DNA of 35,846 bases, from assembly GCA_031269345.1 (NCBI GenBank), contig JAISZH010000093.1:1-35846 (forward strand), read 5' to 3'. The notes beneath the pieces were generated by a model that worked only from the letters and a program-made list of their open reading frames with translations, was not told the origin of the DNA and searched no databases. Below are positions 8,871 through 35,846 of the stretch, one piece after another. The position numbers and the translations under genes are program-made. Every line of letters starts with the position of its first letter. The first letter of the stretch is position 1. This DNA comes from Desulfovibrio sp. Lineage in GTDB: Bacteria; Desulfobacterota; Desulfovibrionia; Desulfovibrionales; Desulfovibrionaceae.

Positions 8871-11534
8871 ATGCGCACGCGGAACATGGGAAAATACATG
8901 GAACTGCTGCTGGCCAACAGTCCGGACGTCATCATCATGCTGGATCCGGAAGGGCGGCTGCAGTACTGTTCCAGCACCTTCCTGCGCTATATAAACGTCG
9001 GCGACGTGAAGGGAGTTCAGGGGCTGAACTTTCGCAAAATTTACAGCTCCTTCGCGGATGAGGCATTTCTCATGGCGGCGAAGGCGCGTTTCTCCGCAGT
9101 AAAAGAAACCCGCACCGCCATTGTTTGCAACGTGGAAATAAATTTCCCCGGACGGGGGGAATCGCGCTTCTACAGCATCCAAAGCGCCCCCATGCTGGAC
9201 GGCGTCGGCAACGTGGAGGGCGTGCTGGTGCTTATGCACGACAGCACGGAACTGGAACGGGCCGAGGCCGAGGAGCGCATGCGGGTTATGCTGGATTCCA
9301 CGCCGCTGGCCTGCAATTTTCAGGACCAGGACGCGCGCATTCTGGATTGCAACCAGGAGACACTGGTCCTTTTCGGCGTCTCAAGCAAAGAGCAGTTTCT
9401 GAACGAATTTTTTCATTCCCTTTCCCCGGAATTTCAGCCTTCGGGCAGGCGCAGCCGGGAACTGGCGGTGGAAAACAACCGGCGCGCGCTCGCAAGCGGT
9501 CGCGAAGAATTTGAATGGCTGCACCGCACCTTGTCCGGAGAGATTTTTCCCGCCGAGGTCACCCTGGTGCGCGTCAAATGGCGCGACGGCTACCGGGTGG
9601 TGAGCTATACCCGCGATTTGCGCCCGCTCAAGGCGAGCGAACAGAAGGCGCGCGAGGCGGAAAGCCATTCGCTGGAGCTTGAGATCCAGACCAGGGCGGC
9701 CGAGGTCGCCTCAACGGCCAAAAGCAGGTTCCTGGCCTCCATGAGCCACGAGATACGCACGCCCATGAACGCGATCATCGGCATGAGCGAACTGTTCCGC
9801 ACAGACAACCTGGATATGGTGCAGAAAGGCTTTCTGGAAGACATCAGGCGCGTATCCAGAGCCCTGGTGCAGATACTGAACGATATCCTGGATTTTACCA
9901 AGATCGAAGCCGGCAAGATGGAGCTTATTCCGGTCCATTTCGATCTTCTGGAGCTTTACGGCAATATCTGCTCCATGTGCCGCTATATGGCCGAAGCCGG
10001 AGACCTGCGTTTTTCCCACAGCTACGGCCGGGATGTGCCCCGAATTGTTTACGGCGACGATGTGCGCATCCGCCAGGTGATCACAAATCTTCTGACCAAC
10101 GCCATAAAGTACACGCGCAAAGGGGAGGTTGATTTCCGGATATCCGCCGCCTTTCGCGACAACAGCCTCTGGCTGGTTTTTGTGGTGCGCGACACGGGCA
10201 TCGGCATCCGCGAGGAGGATTTGCCGAAGCTCTTTGACGACTTCGAACGCTTTGACCGCGACAGCAACCGCAGCCTTGCCGGTACCGGCCTCGGGCTTCC
10301 CATCACCAGAAACCTGGTGGAAATAATGGATGGGAGGCTTGAGGTGGAGAGCGAATACGGCAAGGGGTCCGTGTTTACAGTCTATCTGCCCCTTGTGCCG
10401 GGAGACCCCGCCAAGGTGACCGTCCACGCCAGTCAGAGCAGAGTGCGCGCGGCGGCCGGCACCAGAGTTCTGGTCGTGGACGACAACGCGATCAACCTCA
10501 AAGTGGCCCTGGCCTACCTTGAAAAACACGGTATTAAAGCGGAAACCGCCATGAACGGCGAAGACGCCCTGCACATGGTGAGGCAAAAGGATTACGATCT
10601 GGTTTTTATGGATCATATGATGCCCGGTATGGACGGCCTTGAGACAGCCCGGCGCATACGCGCCCTGCCGGATGAAAAATACGCCCGCATGCCTATTGTG
10701 GCTTTAAGCGCCAACGCCCTCGCGGGCATGGACAAGATTTTCGGCGACGCCGGCATGAACGCCTTTCTGCCCAAACCCATCAACTCGCGACAGTTGAACG
10801 ATGTTCTGGCCCGCTGGCTTCCGGCCGCAAAAATCGTCGGAGACGCCGAAAGCGACGAAATCGCGGCAGACGGACACGCGACCCCTGATGCCGGCGCGGG
10901 CTTCGCCCCCCTGGCGAATCTTCCGGACGGCCCTGTGCGCAAGGAGGCGCAGCTTACAGAGAGCCCGAACCTGAACCCCAGAGTGGGACTGCGCAATATC
11001 GAGGGGGACTTCGATCTCTATCAGCGGCTTCTGGCCGACTTTGCCACCGATCACACCGAGGACGCGCAGAAAATCCGCGCAAGCCTGGAGCGGGGAGATG
11101 TCGCTTCCGCGCACCGGACGGCCCATACCCTGAAAAGCGTGGCCGGGCAGTTGGGCGCCATGCGGCTTCAGGAAAGCTCCCTCGGCGCGGAGATGGAACT
11201 AAAAGAGGGAAGCTGCTCCGAAGAACGCTTATCCGTCCTGGAAAGCGATTTGCTGGCCCTGCTGGCTGAAATAGGCTCCACGCCCGGCAGAACGGGCGCA
11301 CCCGGTGACGGAGAGATGACCCTGGACAGGAAAAAGGCGCGGGATCTGGCCGGACGTCTGACCCCGCTTCTGCGCAGGGGGGACACGAAAGCTCTCTCGT
11401 TGATGGAGGAGGCGCGGACTGTTTTCGCTCCCATGGGTGGCCTCTGCTCCTGGCTGGTAAGGGAGGTGGAGGATTTCGAATTTAAACGGGCGGAGGAAAC
11501 TCTGGGCAAGATCCTGGCCGCTATGGAGGAATGA
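8871..11534 (+). CDS. Hybrid sensor histidine kinase (PAS-PAS-HisKA-HATPase-REC-Hpt)
   Basis: This ~887-residue kinase has no membrane segment, so it is probably cytoplasmic. Two PAS domains (about residues 5-130 and 138-255) precede a short coiled coil and HisKA with SHEIRTPMNAIIGM (phospho-His ~293). The HATPase domain shows NAIKYT, DTGIGI and GTGLGL. REC begins VLVVDDNAINLKV with phospho-Asp ~581 in DLVFMDHMMPGMD, and a C-terminal Hpt has AHTLKSVAGQLGA (His ~752). A phosphorelay His-Asp-His can therefore run within one chain. Start: the ATG at 8871 has GGTGGGG just upstream; a longer frame opens at 8805 without such a site. It is three bases upstream of a REC-GGDEF gene, a probable partner. 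Confidence 0.93.
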   Translation: MRTRNMGKYMELLLANSPDVIIMLDPEGRLQYCSSTFLRYINVGDVKGVQGLNFRKIYSSFADEAFLMAAKARFSAVKETRTAIVCNVEINFPGRGESRFYSIQSAPMLDGVGNVEGVLVLMHDSTELERAEAEERMRVMLDSTPLACNFQDQDARILDCNQETLVLFGVSSKEQFLNEFFHSLSPEFQPSGRRSRELAVENNRRALASGREEFEWLHRTLSGEIFPAEVTLVRVKWRDGYRVVSYTRDLRPLKASEQKAREAESHSLELEIQTRAAEVASTAKSRFLASMSHEIRTPMNAIIGMSELFRTDNLDMVQKGFLEDIRRVSRALVQILNDILDFTKIEAGKMELIPVHFDLLELYGNICSMCRYMAEAGDLRFSHSYGRDVPRIVYGDDVRIRQVITNLLTNAIKYTRKGEVDFRISAAFRDNSLWLVFVVRDTGIGIREEDLPKLFDDFERFDRDSNRSLAGTGLGLPITRNLVEIMDGRLEVESEYGKGSVFTVYLPLVPGDPAKVTVHASQSRVRAAAGTRVLVVDDNAINLKVALAYLEKHGIKAETAMNGEDALHMVRQKDYDLVFMDHMMPGMDGLETARRIRALPDEKYARMPIVALSANALAGMDKIFGDAGMNAFLPKPINSRQLNDVLARWLPAAKIVGDAESDEIAADGHATPDAGAGFAPLANLPDGPVRKEAQLTESPNLNPRVGLRNIEGDFDLYQRLLADFATDHTEDAQKIRASLERGDVASAHRTAHTLKSVAGQLGAMRLQESSLGAEMELKEGSCSEERLSVLESDLLALLAEIGSTPGRTGAPGDGEMTLDRKKARDLAGRLTPLLRRGDTKALSLMEEARTVFAPMGGLCSWLVREVEDFEFKRAEETLGKILAAMEE

Positions 11535-26764: not shown

Positions 26765-29602
26765 TTATTCTTCCAATTCTTCAAGCATGGCGCAGAGATG
26801 CCAGGAACCGTTACCCGTCAACTCGAACATATCAGAGTCGTCTTTCTTCTCGCGGATAAGCAGGCAATCCAGCCATCGTCCAATTATCCCGTCCAATTCT
26901 TCAGCACAGAGTAAATCTTTATGAATTGAGCCTGTCATAAGATGTTTCGCAATCGTTGATCTTGCGAAATTCTCTTCACTTTCAACTATGCTCCCCTGAA
27001 ACAATGGATAACTCCGCGCAACTTCAAGAAATTTTTTTGAAAGTTGCGGACACCGGTAGTGGAGATCCGCGAAGACGCCATCGGCGGATGCGCCGACGGC
27101 AAGCAGATCTTCTCCCCTTCTGGCATGGTTGTAGTAGAGGTTCCGGTCTTGGGGTCTGGCGTAATGGCAAAAATGGTTTTTGTCATATCCCGCCCGCGTA
27201 AGTTTGCTGTCCGCAGCGGCAAACATCGCAAAATCTTTTATGATATCGGGTGAATGGCTATAACGGCGCAGGAATCCCCGGTTGCGGCCGGACTGATTGA
27301 AACCGTACAGCGATATGCCGTGGATCCCCAGGCGGTCCAACCGGTCAATGCCGGAGAAAAACGCCGTGACGCTTTGTCCCGGCAATCCGTACAGGAGATC
27401 CGCGGTGGTCACAAAGCCCCGTTCGAGACAGTCCGCAATCCGTTTGAGCACGGTTTCGGGCGGCTCTCGGCGGCCTATTTCCCGGCGGAGCGGTTCTTCC
27501 AGCGTCTGTACGCCGATGTGCAAGCGTCGAAACCCCAGGCTCCAGAGGAAGTCAAGATGCGGTCCTGTCAACAGGTGCGCTGTGGATTCCAGAGCCCATT
27601 CCGTGGAACGGCTTGTATGGAATCCGGCGCGGACGGCCTCGACGACGGACGCAAAGACTGAAGGCTGGAGATAGTTGGGCGTTCCGCCGCCGAAATGGAC
27701 CGTGGTTACCGGCCATGCCGCCAGCGCGGTCCGCTCCGACCATTGTTGCAGGTCAAGGCGCAAGCGGCGGGCATAAACGGTCTGCAGGGGATGGCCGGGT
27801 CTGGCGCTGCAGGTGTAGCAGTCGCAAAATCCGCACCGTTTTTCGCAAAAGGGAACATGCGCGTAGATGGAAAACGGACGCGCCGGGCCGGCGTTCACAA
27901 TCTGACGCAGTCTGTCCCAGGTGGCGTCGCCGTCATACTGAAAGCCCTTTTTCTCCCAGAGCGGCGCGGGCAGCCTTCTGTTTTCCAGATGATAGTACGG
28001 CTGCGACGCTTTCCAGGCTCGCAGGACTTCCTCACGGACAGGCCGGGGCAGATCGCCCAGGGTTTTCGTGATGACGTCGGCAGCCGCCTGCCCGCGCGAG
28101 GCGGCAGCGGATGCCCGCGCTTCTTCCCGGAGCAGTTCCAGGGCGGTTTCGTTGATCAACGCGCGGCCCACGGCCCGGTTCAGGCGGCAACGGAAAGAAG
28201 CTTCCGCCGCTTTTTCCGAAGGATGATACAAGTTCGCTTTCGACAGAAAGCGAACTTGTGTGGCGGAGGCGAAGCCGCCGCTCTCAAGTTTTTGAAAAAT
28301 CAGGCTTTTCCTGTTTTTCAAAATCTTTGGCGTACTGCATTCAAACTCGTTTGAATGCAGCTTGGTATGAAGATCGTCCTGTAGCGCGCAATCGTCCGGA
28401 CAGGAGCGGGCGCAGTGATACGCGGCAAAACATGCCCGGCACCCGGCCCCGATGCCGGATGCGCGTTCCCGCAGGGACGCCGTCTTGTCCCGGTCAAGCG
28501 CGAACCGGCCGGAACGCCTGTCAAATCCGCCGATAATCTGGGAACTGTTGCCGGGATGGTCGCCGTCCACAACCAGAAAACAGTTCGTGGCTCTGCCATC
28601 GGGAGTGAGATGCAGAGACTGCCGGAGCACGTTGCAATAGGGGCCGTGGTGTTCGTCAGGCCGGAAGCCGGAGAAAGTAAGCGCGACGTTGTGCCGCAGA
28701 GCCGCCCGCTTCGCCCGCATGAAATGCCCTGCCCATTCTTCGGGATCAGTGCCCCCGCCGCCGCCCGCGCCAGCGCTGTACACGGGCTCAAAGGCAACAT
28801 TGTCCGCGCCGAGTTCCACGGCAAGATACTCCAGAATCTCCGCCTGGCGGGAAACCGTCTCCGGCGTGATTGTCGCGCGCAAGTCCAGGCGGGCTCCGGC
28901 CTCCTTCAGCGCGACGGCGGTCCGTCTCACCCGGCCGGAGGTGGGCGCGCCGTCGGATGACGGCCGCTGCCTGTCCTGGATATCGGGCGGTCCGTCGCAG
29001 GACAGTCCGACTCTGCCGAAGATTGCCGCCATCTCCCTGGCAAGCTTGAGCGGTACAACTCCGTTGGTGGCGATATAACCGCTCCACGGCACGGCATGGC
29101 GTTCGGCAACGGCTTTGCTGATCCCGACCAGACGCCGCACGAGATCCCAATGGAGGGTCGGTTCGCCGCCGCCATGGCAGGCGAGCTGAAACACCCGGCC
29201 CATGTCGGCGCAGTTGCGGCCGACCAGTTCGGCCGCCGCCGCGAACGCGTCCGGGCGCAGACAGCCGCCGGAACGGGCCACTGTCCTCGCCGGGGCGGCG
29301 AAGCAGTAAGAACACCGCAGGGAGCACCGGTTGCTCAGGTACACGGTCAGACACTCGGGGCGGTATTCTTCCGCCAGCCAACGGGTTCTGGCCGCCACGG
29401 CGCTGCGGGCGTGGTCCAGAAGCCAGCCGCTCTGTTTCCATAGCGATACATCCTCCCGCGTTTCCGTGCCTCCGTTCCACACCTGCCGCAACAAAAGCGC
29501 CTGCTCGCCCGTGACCACGGCCAAGGTTCCGGGGGTATACAGCAGGACTGTTCCGCCGGGACCCGCAAGTTCATAGATGGGCAGTTCAGGATGAATCAGC
29601 AT
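26765..29602 (-). CDS. Double radical SAM protein: SPASM-type maturase fused to HemN-type domain
   Basis: This 945-residue protein carries two radical SAM centres. The first has CSLRCSYC (Cys 93, 97, 100), the HGGGEP motif (~143-148) and SPASM cysteines (C323, C341, then C388, C391, C397, C401, C405 and C472). The second begins YAHVPFCEKRCGFCDC (Cys 586, 590, 593, 595), exactly the CX3CX2CXC pattern of HemN, followed by HFGGGTP (636-642) and a HemN-like C-terminal region. SPASM enzymes usually modify peptides; HemN-like (class C) enzymes include oxidases and methylases. One chain could therefore perform two chemistries on one peptide (inference). A repeat-derived segment (residues ~411-459) lies inside the SPASM region. 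Last gene of the cassette. Confidence 0.88.
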   Translation of the reverse strand: MLIHPELPIYELAGPGGTVLLYTPGTLAVVTGEQALLLRQVWNGGTETREDVSLWKQSGWLLDHARSAVAARTRWLAEEYRPECLTVYLSNRCSLRCSYCFAAPARTVARSGGCLRPDAFAAAAELVGRNCADMGRVFQLACHGGGEPTLHWDLVRRLVGISKAVAERHAVPWSGYIATNGVVPLKLAREMAAIFGRVGLSCDGPPDIQDRQRPSSDGAPTSGRVRRTAVALKEAGARLDLRATITPETVSRQAEILEYLAVELGADNVAFEPVYSAGAGGGGGTDPEEWAGHFMRAKRAALRHNVALTFSGFRPDEHHGPYCNVLRQSLHLTPDGRATNCFLVVDGDHPGNSSQIIGGFDRRSGRFALDRDKTASLRERASGIGAGCRACFAAYHCARSCPDDCALQDDLHTKLHSNEFECSTPKILKNRKSLIFQKLESGGFASATQVRFLSKANLYHPSEKAAEASFRCRLNRAVGRALINETALELLREEARASAAASRGQAAADVITKTLGDLPRPVREEVLRAWKASQPYYHLENRRLPAPLWEKKGFQYDGDATWDRLRQIVNAGPARPFSIYAHVPFCEKRCGFCDCYTCSARPGHPLQTVYARRLRLDLQQWSERTALAAWPVTTVHFGGGTPNYLQPSVFASVVEAVRAGFHTSRSTEWALESTAHLLTGPHLDFLWSLGFRRLHIGVQTLEEPLRREIGRREPPETVLKRIADCLERGFVTTADLLYGLPGQSVTAFFSGIDRLDRLGIHGISLYGFNQSGRNRGFLRRYSHSPDIIKDFAMFAAADSKLTRAGYDKNHFCHYARPQDRNLYYNHARRGEDLLAVGASADGVFADLHYRCPQLSKKFLEVARSYPLFQGSIVESEENFARSTIAKHLMTGSIHKDLLCAEELDGIIGRWLDCLLIREKKDDSDMFELTGNGSWHLCAMLEELEE
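28226..28372 (+). repeat. Palindromic repeat R3, copy a, inserted in frame in a radical SAM gene
   Basis: The element begins with palindrome AAGTTCGCTTTC-GACA-GAAAGCGAACTT and ends with GCATTCAAACTCGTTTGAAT. Between lie a GGCGGAGGCGAAGCCGCC hairpin and a GAAAAATCAGGCTTTTCCTG arm region. The reverse complement of 33412-33561 matches it at roughly 85-90 percent by eye. It adds about 49 codons without a stop to the 945-residue protein. Confidence 0.88.
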
Positions 29603-29631: not shown

Positions 29632-29775
29632 CCTTTACGGTTTGAAACCCCGGCCTTCAGGCCGGATAGCCCGCCCCCGCCCTTCAGTGCGGGGTATCCG
29701 TACGGGCGCAAGTCTGGGCGGGGTCCAACCCCGAGGCGCAAGACGAATGGGCATGAAGGCCAATGCCGCCTTCCC
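29632..29775 (-). repeat. Dispersed repeat R1, copy c, at the end of a radical SAM gene
   Basis: Inverted relative to copies a and b, with both hairpins (GGCCTTCAGGCC; CCGCCCTTCAGTGCGGGG, one mismatch). The Shine-Dalgarno end has diverged (GTAAAGGTAAAATG). Bases 29684-29775 are read as the last ~30 codons and stop of the upstream radical SAM gene, and the rest fills the gap to the next gene. Confidence 0.85.
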
Positions 29776-31765
29776 GGCCCGGGCCGGACCCCGTGAGCGC
29801 CAGCTCATAATACTCTCTGCAAACCAGGCAGGAATGGCAACATTTATCGCAGTGCAAAGTCCTGTGGTAGAAGGCGTCGCTGATGTGGATCGGCGTGAGG
29901 GGCGAAGCGGGTCCCCCGCCCACGGAGTCGGGCGTGACGGCGCGGCGGGTGATGTAGGCGTCGAGAACGTCCAGATACCGCTCGGGGTCTTGCAGTGTCG
30001 CCCTGCCGGCTAGCTTGAAGTCCCGGGTAAGGCCGTCGAAAAAGTGCAGGTGCTGGGGCAGCGCCCACGCGCCGGTCAGCCGCATCCAGGGGTGCCTGTC
30101 CAGAAGCGGGTCGCACAAGGATAACGGCACTTCTTCCGCATAGCCCATCTCATAGAAATGCTGCACCCGCATCAGGCAGTCCGGCAGACAGCCTTCATTG
30201 ACGATCAGCCGCAGGGCGCCGGGAAACGCCCGGCCCACGGCCTGGAGCGCCGGATAGTTGCGCATGATCCGGCTGGCGGGAACAAGGGTCTCGCAGATGC
30301 CTGCCAGTTGATGCGCCTGATGGGGCCGGGCGACGTCCATCAGAACCGAGGCGGTCAGCGGCAGGTCCGGCAGACGCTCTTTGACGATCCGGGCCAGGCT
30401 GATGTCGGCGACGGTCACGCCGCTCAGGCGCGTCATGGCCAGCAGGTCTTTGAGTGCCGCGACGACGGGGGCCGCAATGTCTGCCGCCGGACGAGGCAGC
30501 ACCACGGGATTGAGCAGCACGGACACGGGAAGCGGACCATGGCGCAGGAAACTCTCAAGATGCCCGTCCCGTAGCGCCGGCCGCCCCGAGGCCAGCAGGC
30601 TGCGGGGAAGCGGCAGGTAAACTTCCCGGATCGCCGGGCCGTACCGGGCGTGTATTTCCCGCCAGAACGCCGGCGGCTGGTCGATATAGGGGATGGACCA
30701 TCGCTCCTTGTCCGTCCCCGGCTTTGCGCAGGCGCCTGACGCCGCGGACCCCGCGCACGGTCGAGGCCCGGAACGGCCGGGTCCGGGGCGCTGCCGGGCG
30801 CCGGCGAAAATTCGCCCTGTCACGGGAAAAGGGCGCATCCGCCGCAAGGCGGCGGCCCGGCAGCCGCCGTTGCAGCGGGACTGCTCGCGAAGGGGGCAGC
30901 GGCCGCATTCGCCATAGATTCCCGTTTGCGCAAACACGGCCAGTTGATCGCTTAACCGCGCCTGGACGGACCGGGAGGTGTCGCCGGGAAGGCATGACGT
31001 TTGGCAGACGCGCGCCAGCGGGTAACATGGAATCGCCCGCCCGTCGGGGAGAAAATCCGGCAGCGGGTTACAGCGCGCGCCCGGCGGATCCCCGAGGGTT
31101 GCGAACAACTCAAGGTCTTCTTTGTCGAACATGCAGGGCACAAAGCCGCAGTCGAATTCCAGCCGCACCCCTTGGTCAAGGGCCTGGCTGACGAAAAGGC
31201 CGAGGCCGCGCCCGACCGTCCGGTAGTGCCGTGGATGGAGAAAATGGTTTTCAGCGCCTGCGCGGGGGTGCGCCAGACCGGCCCTGACGAAGGGGACAAG
31301 GCCGAACGTCTTGATCAACGGCAGAAAAGGCGCGGGAGAAACGCCGGGATGGTGTATGGTGCAGCCCGGAACGATCACTCCGCCCAAAGCCGCCAAAACC
31401 TGCCGCAGCCGTTTGTCTCCCGGTTCCGGCGGGCAGGCGGCGGGATCAATGTTCAGCAGGATGCGCAAACGCTCCGCAGGAAAGCGTGTGAGGCGGCTCA
31501 GGGCTTTTGTGGGCATCCGGCCGTTGGAAAAAAGCAGCAGATCAAGCCCCCGTTCTTTGATCATGTCTATAAAGCGGCCGAAGAGGGGATGGATCGTCGG
31601 CTCGCCGCCAAGCACGGGGACCTGCCGGATGCCGGAATGCTCAAGAAAATCCAGGGCTTGAGCAAAGACCTCCGGCCGCATATGCCCGGTGTCTTCGTCC
31701 GGACCGGGGACGAAGCAGTACCCGCATCGCCGGTTGCACGAAAAGGTGATGGAAATGTTGCTCAT
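29684..31765 (-). CDS. Radical SAM/SPASM protein with U32-peptidase-like C-terminal half
   Basis: This ~693-residue protein opens with the radical SAM motif CNRRCGYC (Cys 10, 14, 17), then PVLGGEPTIHP. A SPASM-like cysteine set follows (residues ~230-302, including CGRCPLREQSRCNGGC). After a Pro/Gly/Arg-rich linker (~320-350) a second half (~355-650) recalls the U32-peptidase/UbiU-type TIM barrel, with NEGCLPDCLMRVQHF (~524-538). It ends in a cysteine cluster CDKCCHSCLVC (639-649) that could bind Fe-S. The ATG at 31765 overlaps the stop of the PqqD-like gene (TAATG); a frame open to 31918 lacks support. The last ~30 residues come from repeat R1, so the native C-terminus may have been replaced. 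Confidence 0.82.
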   Translation of the reverse strand: MSNISITFSCNRRCGYCFVPGPDEDTGHMRPEVFAQALDFLEHSGIRQVPVLGGEPTIHPLFGRFIDMIKERGLDLLLFSNGRMPTKALSRLTRFPAERLRILLNIDPAACPPEPGDKRLRQVLAALGGVIVPGCTIHHPGVSPAPFLPLIKTFGLVPFVRAGLAHPRAGAENHFLHPRHYRTVGRGLGLFVSQALDQGVRLEFDCGFVPCMFDKEDLELFATLGDPPGARCNPLPDFLPDGRAIPCYPLARVCQTSCLPGDTSRSVQARLSDQLAVFAQTGIYGECGRCPLREQSRCNGGCRAAALRRMRPFPVTGRIFAGARQRPGPGRSGPRPCAGSAASGACAKPGTDKERWSIPYIDQPPAFWREIHARYGPAIREVYLPLPRSLLASGRPALRDGHLESFLRHGPLPVSVLLNPVVLPRPAADIAAPVVAALKDLLAMTRLSGVTVADISLARIVKERLPDLPLTASVLMDVARPHQAHQLAGICETLVPASRIMRNYPALQAVGRAFPGALRLIVNEGCLPDCLMRVQHFYEMGYAEEVPLSLCDPLLDRHPWMRLTGAWALPQHLHFFDGLTRDFKLAGRATLQDPERYLDVLDAYITRRAVTPDSVGGGPASPLTPIHISDAFYHRTLHCDKCCHSCLVCREYYELALTGSGPGREGGIGLHAHSSCASGLDPAQTCARTDTPH

Positions 31766-32049
31766 TACGGCGCGCCTGTTTCCAGCCAGCCTTCTTCCGC
31801 CCATAGGTCCAGGCGGGAACCGACAAGTTCCCGGGCCTCCCGCGGGCCGATCCCGGCGATCAGTTCCAGCATGGAGCGGATCGTTTCCTCGGACCGGCCG
31901 CGGGTTATCAGATCCCATACCGCGGCTTCGGGATAGGCAAGCTCGTGGCGCAAGTTCCGGGTACTATCGAAGAGCACCACGCAGTGCGGTTCCACAACCC
32001 AGGTCACATGCCCGGCGCATCGCGGCTTTGGCCTGTTTTCCATAGTCAT
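31765..32049 (-). CDS. PqqD-like RiPP recognition protein (RRE), 94 residues
   Basis: This small winged-helix protein matches the PqqD pattern: HVTWVVEPHCVVLFDS, then LAYPEAAVWDLITRGRSEET, and a C-terminal L.LWAEEGWLE. PqqD-type RREs bind the leader of a precursor peptide and bring it to a radical SAM enzyme. Its ATG overlaps the stop of the preceding radical SAM gene (ATGA), and its stop overlaps the next start (TAATG). Translational coupling on both sides suggests fixed stoichiometry with both enzymes. Confidence 0.85.
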   Translation of the reverse strand: MTMENRPKPRCAGHVTWVVEPHCVVLFDSTRNLRHELAYPEAAVWDLITRGRSEETIRSMLELIAGIGPREARELVGSRLDLWAEEGWLETGAP

Positions 32050-33596
32050 CCTGCCGGTTCGAAACGGTCTGACGGTTGCAGGGCCAGGGCTTCCATCGCC
32101 TTTCCGTCGGCCAGCAGGGTCTGGGCGATAGAGGACAGGTTCATGTCCTCAAGAAGCCGGCAGGCCGACAGCAGTCGGGTCTGGATACAAAACGGTCCGT
32201 AGGCGGAAGAACTCCCTGGATAACTGTGCTGCACATGACAGCCCCCGGAACAGACCCATTGGCAGAAACATTTTTCACAGCGCGGTTTGTCCCTGGCCAG
32301 ACCGCGCAAGCGCAACACGGCGTCCGGGTCGATATGCATGCCTCCCTGAACGGACAGACGGCCCACGTCCATGTCCAGGCCGCGTTCCACCCAGGTTTTC
32401 CGGGGCAGATAGCAACTGCTGATCCGGCCGTCAGGGGAAACGATCAACGCATCCTTGCCGACCGGACAGAAGCTGGTCTGTGAAGGCTCCCCCTCCGCGG
32501 CCGCATAGACCGCTTTTATGCCGTAACGCAAAGTCCGGGCGCGGGCTTTGGCGTATTGCCTGACAAATACGTAGGGATCCGGAGGAGACAGCCCGGCCGC
32601 ACGGGATTTTGGGTTGTCGGTCAACGGCTCGAAATTGATGACTGATGGCTGAAATTCCTCGCAGAACCAGATGGCGATTTCTTCAAGGCTTTGGATATTC
32701 AGGTTTGATACGCAACAGCGCAGGCAGAGTTCCGTTGGCGTCCGTGAAAGCAACGCCGCGCTTTGACGGGCCGGAGAAAAACTGCCGCGCCTGGAACTGA
32801 TGGGGCGGTGCCGGTCGTGTATATCCTGAAAGCCGTCCAGAGACAAGACCACCGCATGGAAATAATCGCCCACAAATTGAGCGTATTCCTGTTCAAAGAT
32901 GCCATTTGTGGATACTTCGAGATGCAGGGACAAGTCATGGCGGTCCGCCAGCAGGCGGCTCCGGTGGACCGCTGTTTCGACAACATCGCGGCAGACAAGA
33001 GGTTCGCCGCCAAAAAAGTGCACCTCCATATGATCCTGCCCGGCATCCTTCAAAAAATTGGCGTACCAGGTAAGCGCGGCCTCGGCCATGGCCGGGGACA
33101 TATCGGACGCTTTACCTTCACCGGCGTCGAAGTCGCAATACACGCAGTTGCAGTTGCAGCGTCGCGTCGGCAGAATGCCGAGAAAAAGAGGATTGAGCCG
33201 TCCTGTCGCGGATGGCGGTTCACAGGGTTTCCGGGTCAGCAGGTCGGCGAGTTCGTCTATTTCGGGTGGAAAGGACGGGTCCGGCACAGGCTTTCCTATC
33301 CGGCGGCGCAACGCTTTCAGGGCCGACGCATTGAGCAGTGACGCAATCCCGCTTAGTGGGCTGTATATCAGAAAGGCCTCGTTGACCGGCAGTACGAACA
33401 CGCCGGTCTTATGCCAAGCCGCGTTCAAACGAGTTTGAATGCAGGACGCCAAAGTTTTTGAAAAACAGGAGAAGCCTGATTTTTCAAAAACTTGCGGGCG
33501 GCGGCTTCGCCTCCGCCGTCCAAATTCGCTTTCCATCGAAAGCGAATTGGTATGAGACATGCCGCCAGCGCCCTTGCCCACCGCGTTTCCCTTCAT
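32046..33596 (-). CDS. Radical SAM/SPASM peptide maturase with repeat-derived N-terminus
   Basis: This 516-residue protein has CNCNCVYC (Cys 147, 151, 154), then MEVHFFGGEPLV, LSLDG and a SPASM domain (FCPVGKDALIV, SSCYL, CEKCFCQWVCSGGC, and later Cys in GPFCIQTRLLSACRL). This is the PqqE/anSME-type layout, which carries two auxiliary Fe-S clusters. The start ATG at 33596 and its Shine-Dalgarno sequence AAAGGAAG belong to repeat R1, and residues ~13-63 are encoded by repeat R3 in inverted orientation. Native sequence seems to begin around residue 64 (TGVFVLPVNEAFLIYSP). An alternative start is ATG 33560, without a clear ribosome-binding site. It is upstream of the 94-residue PqqD-like gene. 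Confidence 0.85.
   Translation of the reverse strand: MKGNAVGKGAGGMSHTNSLSMESEFGRRRRSRRPQVFEKSGFSCFSKTLASCIQTRLNAAWHKTGVFVLPVNEAFLIYSPLSGIASLLNASALKALRRRIGKPVPDPSFPPEIDELADLLTRKPCEPPSATGRLNPLFLGILPTRRCNCNCVYCDFDAGEGKASDMSPAMAEAALTWYANFLKDAGQDHMEVHFFGGEPLVCRDVVETAVHRSRLLADRHDLSLHLEVSTNGIFEQEYAQFVGDYFHAVVLSLDGFQDIHDRHRPISSRRGSFSPARQSAALLSRTPTELCLRCCVSNLNIQSLEEIAIWFCEEFQPSVINFEPLTDNPKSRAAGLSPPDPYVFVRQYAKARARTLRYGIKAVYAAAEGEPSQTSFCPVGKDALIVSPDGRISSCYLPRKTWVERGLDMDVGRLSVQGGMHIDPDAVLRLRGLARDKPRCEKCFCQWVCSGGCHVQHSYPGSSSAYGPFCIQTRLLSACRLLEDMNLSSIAQTLLADGKAMEALALQPSDRFEPAG
33412..33561 (-). repeat. Palindromic repeat R3, copy b, at the start of a radical SAM gene
   Basis: Both palindromes are present (GCATTCAAACTCGTTTGAAC-type and AATTCGCTTTCGATGGAAAG-type on the minus strand), with the GGCGGAGGCGAAGCCGCC hairpin between. 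It is inverted relative to copy a. It contributes about 50 codons to the 5' end of the gene, in a different reading frame of the element from that used in copy a. Confidence 0.87.
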
Positions 33597-33812
33597 CTGA
33601 GCTTCCTTTACGGTTTGCGGCCCCGGCCTTCAGGCCGGATAGCCCGACCCCGCCCTGAAGGGCGGGGTGTCCGTACGGACGGAAGCCTGGCGAGGTCCAA
33701 ACCCCGCCAAAGCGCAAGACGCATGGGCCTGAAGGCCGATGCTGCCTTCCTGGTCCAGGCTTCCTTTACGGTTTGCCATCCCGGCCTTCAGGTCCATGCC
33801 ACCTTCTTGGTT
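33593..33812 (-). repeat. Dispersed repeat R1, copy d, with an adjoining partial copy
   Basis: Full-length R1 at 33593-33757 (two hairpins, GCGTCTTGCGCTTTGGCGGG, and the end AAACCGTAAAGGAAGCTCAG plus ATGAAG). A shorter second copy follows at 33758-33812 (CCGTAAAGGAAGCCTGG end). The two fill the gap between the 138-residue PqqD-like gene and the following radical SAM gene. Confidence 0.87.
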
Positions 33813-34228
33813 CACTCCGGACTGTCCAGGGGATGACAGATTCCGTTTTGCGCCAGGGCCACAAAAAGAGATTTGACCAGGCCCGCGGCAGCGTCGGACG
33901 AAAGATCGAACTCCGATTCCGTCACAGCGCAGATGTCAGCGATAGAATGCCGTCCATCAAAGCGGCTGATGATATATTTTTGCCGCGCGGTTAACGGCAT
34001 ATGGCGTTCGTAGGGCGCGTCAGGGCTCTTTTGCAGCAGCAGCCAGCCATCTTCCATGCCAAGGGTTATTCCCTGATAAACAACCGGTACCATCTTGCGC
34101 AGCACAGCGTCCGGCAGCGAACCTATCTCGTCCAGACGAAAATGCGGTTTTCCGCGCAACTCGTCGACAACGGCCAGGGCTTCGGAGAACAGTGAATGCA
34201 GGTACTGTCTGCGGTTTACATTTTTCAT
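33812..34228 (-). CDS. PqqD-like RiPP recognition protein (RRE), 138 residues
   Basis: This ~138-residue protein has a longer N-terminal part (residues ~1-60, rich in helix) and a PqqD-like C-terminal part (~75-135: PLTARQKYIISRFDGRHSIA, LSSDAAAGLVKSLFVALAQN). Compared with the 94-residue paralogue it is more divergent, so the RRE call rests on layout and neighbourhood. Start: ATG 34228 overlaps the stop of the radical SAM gene upstream (ATGA); a frame open to 34270 would overlap that gene further. Together with its neighbour it forms an enzyme/recognition pair. Confidence 0.7.
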   Translation of the reverse strand: MKNVNRRQYLHSLFSEALAVVDELRGKPHFRLDEIGSLPDAVLRKMVPVVYQGITLGMEDGWLLLQKSPDAPYERHMPLTARQKYIISRFDGRHSIADICAVTESEFDLSSDAAAGLVKSLFVALAQNGICHPLDSPE

Positions 34229-35571
34229 GCCGTTTCTTCTGAAAAGGGCGGACTCCGCGTTCCCCGCCACACGCCGCCGCCTTCCTCAATATAACGAACA
34301 AGCAGCTCCGTGGTTATGGCCCGATTCAACTCGCAGCGGCTGCCGTGCGTCAAATGGCCGTCCCCCCTGTCGGAAAAGGTCTTGGACGGGCAATCGCCCG
34401 CGCAGTGGTAGAAACAGAAACAGCGTTTACAGCTTTGGCGGCGTTCCTCGATTTTCGCCAGAAAACCCTGTCTGGCTCCGGGGGTGAGCCGGATAGCTCC
34501 GCTCGCGTCCATGTCGCCGAAAATAAAGCCGCCGGCAAGTTCGTGCCGACGGTTGCAGACTTCGTAACAGGCCGTAAGGAACCCGTCAGGACCGACGATC
34601 AACGCGGAAACAACGGCGTCGCAAAACCTGCCGGTCAGCAGCCAGGGCCGGGCGCCGGAATAATACATGTGCCGCTGATGCCGGGCGGCGATATCGTACC
34701 CTTCCATAAAATATTCCGCGAAGGCGGCTTGTTGCCGGAGCGCCACCCGGTCAAGCCTGGCGCGTCCGTGGGAGAAGGCCGGTTCGACCTGAAAAGCCGG
34801 GGAGCCGGTCTCTCGGCACAGATAGTCGATGACCTCAGGTATGCGCGTGATGGTCCGATCCGTGACCGTGACCCGGATGCCATACGCGATTCCCTTACGG
34901 TCCAGGGCCTGCAGGGTGCGCGCCACGGAAGCGTGGCTGCCCCTGCCGCTCTTTCGCGGCCGCTGTGCGTTCTGGATGGAAGGCAGGCCATCGCAGGAAA
35001 GGCTGACTTCGTCGATATTGTTCAGGATCCAGGCGCGTTGAGTTTCGGTCCAGACGCCGTTGCTGGTCAGGTTGATTTTGGCCGGTAACGGGGATTTCCG
35101 CGCGTACGCCACACAGTCCTTGAGAACGGACCAGGCCATGGTCGGCTCGCCGCCGCCATGAAAACAGATGGAGTAGTGGTCATGCCCCTGATCAAGGGCG
35201 TTGCGGCAGACCGTATCGATTGCCGCGCGGGCAAGGGGAAGCGGCAAATCCCGCGTCTCGCCCGCGCCGTCGCCATGTGCGTAACAGTAGATGCAGCGCA
35301 GGTTGCACGCATCCGTCAAAAACAGCACGCAGACAGTCGGGAGGAAAACGTCCGAAACCGGCGCGTTGTCGGCAAGGCACGCGTCTTCCTCGAAAAACCC
35401 GATACCGCGGAGAAAAAGGTCCGCTTCCGTATCCGCGCGCCTGACCGCCGGGTCCGCGGCGGAAAGCGTTTCACACAGCCGCGCCATAGCCCGGTTGCCG
35501 ATAAAGGCAAGATGTCGCAGAGGCCGGTAGATTATCACCTTGTCTTTATATGGGATTGCGTATAGTTCCAT
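34225..35571 (-). CDS. Radical SAM/SPASM peptide maturase next to the precursor
   Basis: This 448-residue enzyme has an N-terminal ~80-residue region that may bind the peptide. The radical SAM motif is CNLRCIYC (Cys 89, 93, 96), with HGGGEPT (138-144) and LSCDGLPSIQ (191-200). The SPASM domain has Cys 317, 335 and 339, then CKRCFCFYHCAGDC (381-394), and Cys 413 in RCELNR. It resembles the first half of the 945-residue protein in order and motif context, so the two are probably paralogues. The ATG at 35571 is chosen because the 35718 frame runs antiphase through the precursor. It starts 53 bases after the Cys-rich peptide gene, so that peptide is its likely substrate. Confidence 0.9.
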   Translation of the reverse strand: MELYAIPYKDKVIIYRPLRHLAFIGNRAMARLCETLSAADPAVRRADTEADLFLRGIGFFEEDACLADNAPVSDVFLPTVCVLFLTDACNLRCIYCYAHGDGAGETRDLPLPLARAAIDTVCRNALDQGHDHYSICFHGGGEPTMAWSVLKDCVAYARKSPLPAKINLTSNGVWTETQRAWILNNIDEVSLSCDGLPSIQNAQRPRKSGRGSHASVARTLQALDRKGIAYGIRVTVTDRTITRIPEVIDYLCRETGSPAFQVEPAFSHGRARLDRVALRQQAAFAEYFMEGYDIAARHQRHMYYSGARPWLLTGRFCDAVVSALIVGPDGFLTACYEVCNRRHELAGGFIFGDMDASGAIRLTPGARQGFLAKIEERRQSCKRCFCFYHCAGDCPSKTFSDRGDGHLTHGSRCELNRAITTELLVRYIEEGGGVWRGTRSPPFSEETA

Positions 35572-35624: not shown

Positions 35625-35846
35625 TCAATTGGGCCGCCAGTAATGGCTTCCTCCGCGCGTGACATGGCCCACGCAGGAGCAACCGGAAGGGCGCGTAACA
35701 TGGCCCACGCAGGAGCAACCGGAAGGGGTCGTGGTTTTCCCGGCCTTTGTGCCGACCGAGATCGTATTGCAGACGCAGACTTCTTTGCCGCCGCCATATC
35801 CGGCGGGCACGGCTATGGTGTCGCAGGTGCAGATTTGCTGCGTTGT
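35625..35846 (-). CDS. Cys-x-Cys repeat peptide, candidate RiPP precursor (5' end outside the window)
   Basis: The minus-strand frame is open from the window edge to TGA at 35625-35627, giving at least 73 residues with no start inside except a GTG at 35810. It holds four C-x-C motifs: ICTCDTIAVPAG, VCVCNTISVGTKAG, and twice SGCSCVGHVTR. The first two share CxC-(D/N)-TI-x-V; the last two come from a 36-bp duplication. Cysteine pairs at regular spacing, many Thr/Ser/Gly residues and the position just ahead of a radical SAM/SPASM gene fit the core of a RiPP precursor. The leader would lie beyond the window. No known family is recognised. Confidence 0.65.
   Translation of the reverse strand, partial: TTQQICTCDTIAVPAGYGGGKEVCVCNTISVGTKAGKTTTPSGCSCVGHVTRPSGCSCVGHVTRGGSHYWRPN
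35655..35726 (-). repeat. 36-bp tandem duplication within the precursor gene
   Basis: Units 35655-35690 and 35691-35726 differ at one base. Each encodes PSGCSCVGHVTR, so a whole CxC unit has been duplicated in frame very recently. Confidence 0.9.

Follow-up and report, generated by a model that had tools for sequence, protein, structure and literature searches.

The cysteine-rich C-terminal tail of a WD40 protein, which is exported through the Tat system and probably lipid anchored, is the likely substrate (probability, about 0.7) of a radical SAM cassette encoded directly downstream in Desulfovibrio sp.; we infer the modification of this tail from sequence. This kind of chemistry is known, but neither the architecture of the proposed substrate nor the set of enzymes is described in the literature that we found.

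A Cys-x-Cys tail at the contig end

The tail gene lies at the end of the window (i.e., the whole stretch of 35,846 nucleotides analyzed here). Its 3' end occupies positions 35625 to 35846 on the minus strand, of which positions 35628 to 35846 translate into 73 residues, TTQQICTCDTIAVPAGYGGGKEVCVCNTISVGTKAGKTTTPSGCSCVGHVTRPSGCSCVGHVTRGGSHYWRPN* (stop included), terminating in HYWRPN. All eight cysteines of the tail fall into four CxC units, which are located at residues 6, 24, 44, and 56 (steps of 18, 20, and 12). As the sequence-only reading had stated, two of these units read CxC(D/N)TIxV and two read SGCSCVGHVTR. The latter two are encoded by a 36-bp tandem duplication, with the first copy at positions 35691 to 35726 and the second, PSGCSCVGHVTR, at positions 35655 to 35690 (both on the minus strand); the copies differ by one synonymous change and therefore reflect one recent event rather than two independent ones.

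Only 382 of 200,000 composition-preserving shuffles of the tail (0.2%) contained at least four CxC units, so the pattern is unlikely to arise from composition alone. The window has approximately 22,800 stretches of 73 aa without a stop, and just 2 of these contained four CxC units. A further frame of this length, with four irregularly spaced CxC units, is present at positions 10084 to 10302 (minus strand) and is probably a chance shadow frame of an opposite-strand gene. The tail frame is coding: homologs retain it and codon changes are mostly synonymous (31 identical, 11 synonymous, and 5 nonsynonymous codons in the blocks aligned with copy 2 of genome G348). Position 35846 is the end of contig C67 in the assembly of the window (G000), and the 5' part of the substrate gene is therefore missing; a search for it elsewhere in the G000 assembly did not recover it.

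The tail belongs to an exported WD40 protein

Relatives were sought by a scan with the downstream radical SAM protein (P0002), which covered close relatives and returned one, locus L002, on a 23-kb contig titled as an Accumulibacter MAG. At this locus, the frame extends upstream, and two full-length genes lie in tandem; their products have 464 and 465 aa, with tails ending in GGGHYWRPN, and a third full-length copy (502 aa; seven CxC units) was identified in genome G1151. The full-length homologs (P0003, P0004, and P0014) contain WD40 repeats (PF00400; 83 to 88 bits, cutoff of 27), a Tat signal (TIGR01409; 17.3 to 18.4 bits, cutoff of 16.7) followed by a lipobox-like LAAC or LSAC, and the CxC tail. 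In NCBIfam, the window tail (P0001) had no match, and the matches of P0003, P0004, and P0014 were confined to Tat models, generic repeat models, and models hit by chance. The AlphaFold model of the WD40-tail protein shows confident propeller blades at about residues 184 to 346, and Foldseek matches of the predicted structure were WD40 propeller proteins. The pLDDT of the tail was <50, suggesting that it is a flexible appendage. The carrier is probably a Tat-exported, lipid-anchored WD40 beta-propeller protein.

The sequence-only reading had proposed a stand-alone small peptide and had held that its proving to be the end of a large known protein would speak against this. Because the full-length homologs carry a WD40 domain ahead of the tail, the proposed peptide must be given up: in both orthologous loci, the frame forms the C-terminal ~75 to 100 residues of a Tat-type WD40 protein of 464 to 502 aa. 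This protein is large but belongs as a whole to no curated family. Judging from these orthologs, the 73 residues in the window form the end of such an exported protein, the WD40 part of which is deduced from the orthologs since the window gene is 5' truncated. The same reading had anticipated a variable repeat number and a conserved leader among homologs; homologs indeed have between 2 and 7 CxC units and share a conserved segment at the N terminus.

The downstream radical SAM cassette

The tail gene is followed by six genes, all on the minus strand, in the order rSAM1, a small protein with a PqqD-like end, rSAM2, a PqqD-like protein, rSAM3 (U32-like), and rSAM4. The rSAM1 gene (34225 to 35571), which starts 53 bp downstream of the tail gene, encodes a 448-aa radical SAM/SPASM protein with the motifs CNLRCIYC and CX2CX5CX3C. 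Its nearest solved structure is 5wgg (E value of 1.5e-16), which we take to be CteB, the SCIFF maturase. The small protein (33812 to 34228; 138 aa) is weakly PqqD-like in its C-terminal half, and its ATG overlaps the rSAM1 stop codon (ATGA, 34225 to 34228). The rSAM2 gene (32046 to 33596) encodes a radical SAM/SPASM paralog of rSAM1, the true start of which is probably further in, and its stop codon is overlapped by the gene for the 94-aa PqqD-like protein (31765 to 32049), a candidate peptide-binding RRE. The rSAM3 protein (29684 to 31765; start set from homologs) has a MoaA-like radical SAM domain, and its C terminus is extended by a Cys-rich part that weakly resembles Peptidase_U32, and rSAM4 (26765 to 29602; 945 aa) is a radical SAM/SPASM protein fused to a HutW/HemN-like radical SAM domain (CX3CX2CXC).

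All four rSAM proteins scored above the Pfam cutoff for Radical_SAM. The rSAM1 and rSAM2 proteins and the N-terminal half of rSAM4 (rSAM4N) are paralogous SPASM enzymes; rSAM1 and rSAM4N contain both CX3CX2C and the SPASM motif CX2CX5CX3C...C, which places them in the radical SAM/SPASM superfamily. The U32 and PqqD matches were weak (0.0002 to 0.03), the former being found in the rSAM3 extension of all three members (best, 0.0002), and the predicted structure of rSAM3 was poor (pLDDT of 35). The first maturase, rSAM1, matched no NCBIfam model at its cutoff, and rSAM2 scored 76.1 bits against TIGR04463 (rSAM_vs_C_rich), far below the cutoff of 525.

Conservation and horizontal transfer

The order and strand of the seven genes are identical in G000, G348, and G1151, with cassette protein identities to G000 of 67 to 78% (G348) and 51 to 71% (G1151). 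PurF encoded on the G348 contig is 88% and 82% identical to sequences from relatives of that organism and 40 to 41% identical to those of G000 and G1151. Since the cassette is far more similar between G000 and G348 than PurF is, it has moved horizontally; misbinning as the source of the cross-phylum match was set aside, given that this PurF gene resides on the same contig. The genes flanking the cassette are rmlC and those of the Qrc complex in the window, and genes for an 818-aa exported-looking protein, ssb, and a folC-dedD-cvpA-purF group in G348, some of these names being presumptive assignments from our own reading of the translations. The flanks in G1151 differ from both. On the contig of G348, immediately ahead of ssb (L027:6948-7316, minus strand), 31 residues are 58% identical to the SPASM region of rSAM4, apparently representing a decayed second rSAM4 copy.

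Among the remaining sampled genomes that share the genus, family, class, or phylum of G000, the tail or rSAM1 was found only in G1151 and the more distant G1146; the sampled relatives of G348 and G1151 yielded neither. A genome of the same genus encodes an 818-aa protein with two radical SAM-like segments (L036:2688-5141, minus strand). Searches of plasmids (with the first tail) and viral contigs for the tail, and of phages for rSAM1, returned nothing. One apparent tail match, L024 in G238, was a chance translation across stop codons, and weak tail matches (E values of 0.003 to 0.05) were taken as noise.

A second carrier domain and more distant relatives

In "Ca. Chlorohelix allophototropha" (Chloroflexota), a plasmid carries a core cassette, in which rSAM2, the PqqD-like protein, and an rSAM3 that lacks the U32 part are followed by a WD40 protein and a 422-aa protein and then by rSAM1 and the small protein; the enzymes are 37 to 43% identical to those of G000. 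IS21-type transposase genes directly follow this cassette (L068:17108-19425). The WD40 protein and the 422-aa protein, both of the Tat type, have a common N terminus, EEKPQVFAVSKKR-GFKFNRRDFL, and a common tail, PCG-PIPAGAVC-CNCVAG...HYW-PN, but their middle domains differ, and that of the 422-aa protein shares 70% identity with a neighboring protein that lacks both the Tat motif and the tail. These observations suggest that exported domains unrelated to one another have been fitted with the leader and tail. Repetition of CxC is not essential, since the WD40 protein of Chlorohelix contains a single CxCxC cluster. Across the tails, the CxC and HYWxPN positions are invariant, the HYWxPN end being among the most conserved.

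The rSAM1 relative of G1146 (341 bits) is preceded by a Tat protein in which IKIYSIAK stands ahead of the RR and the end carries CSC. CxC proteins adjoin rSAM1-type enzymes at L069, L070, and L073, where the remaining cassette was not seen. These include a 155-aa Tat-like protein of a Caballeronia NK8 plasmid (L069:9302-9769), with CxC near the mature N terminus and a weak C-terminal DUF1344 match, and a 128-aa CxC-rich protein of a Methylocystis plasmid (L070:9413-9799). A 115-aa peptide with eight CxC units and no NCBIfam match (L030:6444-6788) adjoins a FibroRumin-like maturase that falls under the cutoff (238 versus 400 bits).

Comparison with known systems

In sequence, the rSAM1 protein is nearest to the maturases of the PapB/freyrasin (PapB model, 8e-30) and SCIFF/CteB (5wgg, see above) systems. 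However, it scored 104.1 bits against the PapB-type model NF047865 (the best NCBIfam match; cutoff of 340) and 89.6 bits against the SCIFF maturase model TIGR03974 (cutoff of 425). The substrate is not a short six-Cys peptide but the tail of a protein of 464 to 502 aa. By inspection, the tails lack the CX3D/E repeats of PapB-type substrates; their units are CxC(D/N)TI or CSCVG, in agreement with the initial impression that the pattern differs from CXXX, SCIFF, and CX3D. Ranthipeptide systems likewise pair a Cys-rich ribosomal substrate with an adjoining SPASM enzyme, but their substrates are short peptides, with CX3D or six Cys in 45 residues, and are served by one radical SAM protein, whereas here an exported WD40 protein of ~465 aa with CxC units is accompanied by four.

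In the QhpD/QhpC system of quinohemoprotein amine dehydrogenase, a SPASM enzyme similarly acts on a subunit of an exported complex, and rSAM1 aligns with the QhpD model TIGR03906 over residues 58 to 421 (2.7e-24; 85.7 bits, cutoff of 453). Here, however, propeller and modified segment would form one chain exported via Tat, whereas QhpD has a dedicated exporter, and no heme or amine dehydrogenase subunit genes were found among the examined neighbors in the window, L002, and L067. FibroRumin systems (TIGR04135 peptide, TIGR04136 maturase) also combine a SPASM enzyme with adjoining targets that are short, rich in Cys, and contain CxC runs, but these targets are free peptides of 50 to 60 aa, unlike the WD40 tail; neither the tails nor rSAM1 or rSAM2 matched FibroRumin models among the matches listed. 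Two adjacent FibroRumin target peptides with CxC runs (TIGR04135, above the cutoff) adjoin a FibroRumin maturase at L034:6792-7129. The C-terminal half of rSAM4 resembles HutW/HemN (2.6e-50 to TIGR04107), but it is fused to a SPASM domain and scored 171 bits against a cutoff of 400, and no heme uptake genes were seen in the cassette. In the literature searched, no study describing a WD40 or Tat substrate for a radical SAM maturase was found, which is not proof of absence.

Alternative explanations

If the WD40 part were a giant leader, the CxC tail could be cleaved from it after modification to yield a free RiPP, an enlarged form of the sequence-only reading. Variation in the number of CxC units and the recent tandem duplication, which are usual in RiPP cores, and the nature of the cassette as a mobile multienzyme locus are consistent with such a release. 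We nevertheless consider it unlikely, since the cassette at complete loci showed no recognizable gene for a dedicated peptidase or an ABC exporter, the conserved residues of the tail include its very last ones, and the Tat signal and lipobox suggest that the whole protein is exported and anchored. Hardly less unlikely is an unmodified tail that serves as a metal or redox segment (Fe, Cu, Zn, or disulfides), with the radical SAM enzymes making something else, such as a small propeller-bound cofactor. CxC is a common metal ligand pair, the sulfate-reducer-type genes of the window point to an anaerobic, sulfidic setting, and the HutW/HemN enzymes that rSAM4 resembles act on tetrapyrroles. However, substrate and SPASM enzymes co-occur and move together at every locus found, CxC proteins adjoin rSAM1-type enzymes even at the three loci described above, and peptides are the usual targets of SPASM enzymes that have PqqD-like partners.

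The rarity of the tail, with 3 carriers among well over 1,000 genomes sampled, would suit a low-complexity C terminus that has no special role and lies next to unrelated enzymes by chance. This reading is largely excluded by the conserved synteny, which spans different phyla; the invariant tail positions and the mostly synonymous codon changes also argue against it, making it highly improbable.

Proposed mechanism and implications

Modification of the tail by the adjacent radical SAM enzymes, as the sequence-only reading had suggested, is preferred and appears probable: SPASM enzymes, PqqD-like helpers, a Cys-rich tail, and a conserved pre-Tat segment are constantly paired, which fits a modification guided by the leader in the cytoplasm, with the folded product then leaving through Tat. 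The full WD40-tail protein would be made in the cytoplasm, where the segment preceding the twin arginines (consensus, approximately E-x-P-[EQ]-[IV]-[YF]-[GA]-[IV]-x-K-x(4-5)-[IF]-x-x-NRR) would act as the leader and be held by the PqqD-like partners. The rSAM1, rSAM2, and rSAM4N enzymes would then act on the CxC units, most likely forming Cys thioether cross-links to nearby residues. Further changes, or the recycling of partners, may fall to rSAM3, which has the U32-like part, and to the HutW-like domain. The folded, modified protein would finally exit via Tat, lose its signal, and be lipidated at the lipobox Cys, with the tail displayed outside.

The nearest known relatives of rSAM1, those of the CteB/SCIFF, PapB/freyrasin, and QhpD systems, form Cys thioethers (reviewed in PMC8326336). 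Thioether formation on the CxC units is for this reason our leading guess, at even odds or slightly less; the tail may instead be epimerized, methylated by the HutW-like domain, or hydroxylated by the U32-like part. The earlier caution that the chemistry cannot be told from sequence still holds, as the type of cross-link is not fixed by it. There is an even chance that these genes constitute a transferable tail-tag system, in which a multienzyme cassette (three SPASM domains, a U32-extended radical SAM protein, a HutW-like domain, and two PqqD-like helpers) reads a pre-Tat leader and modifies a modular CxC...HYWxPN tail on different exported domains, such that large folded proteins are exported with a radical-modified tail and the system spreads between phyla.

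For most radical SAM peptide maturases known so far, the substrate is a short dedicated peptide or one catalytic subunit. If the proposed system is real, it would extend RiPP-style chemistry to cell surface proteins, and the modified tail would provide a reason for coupling to an exporter of folded proteins. The cassette would offer an enzyme set for study, including the unusual SPASM-HutW fusion, and the HYWxPN end together with the pre-Tat motif represents a simple handle for finding more members.
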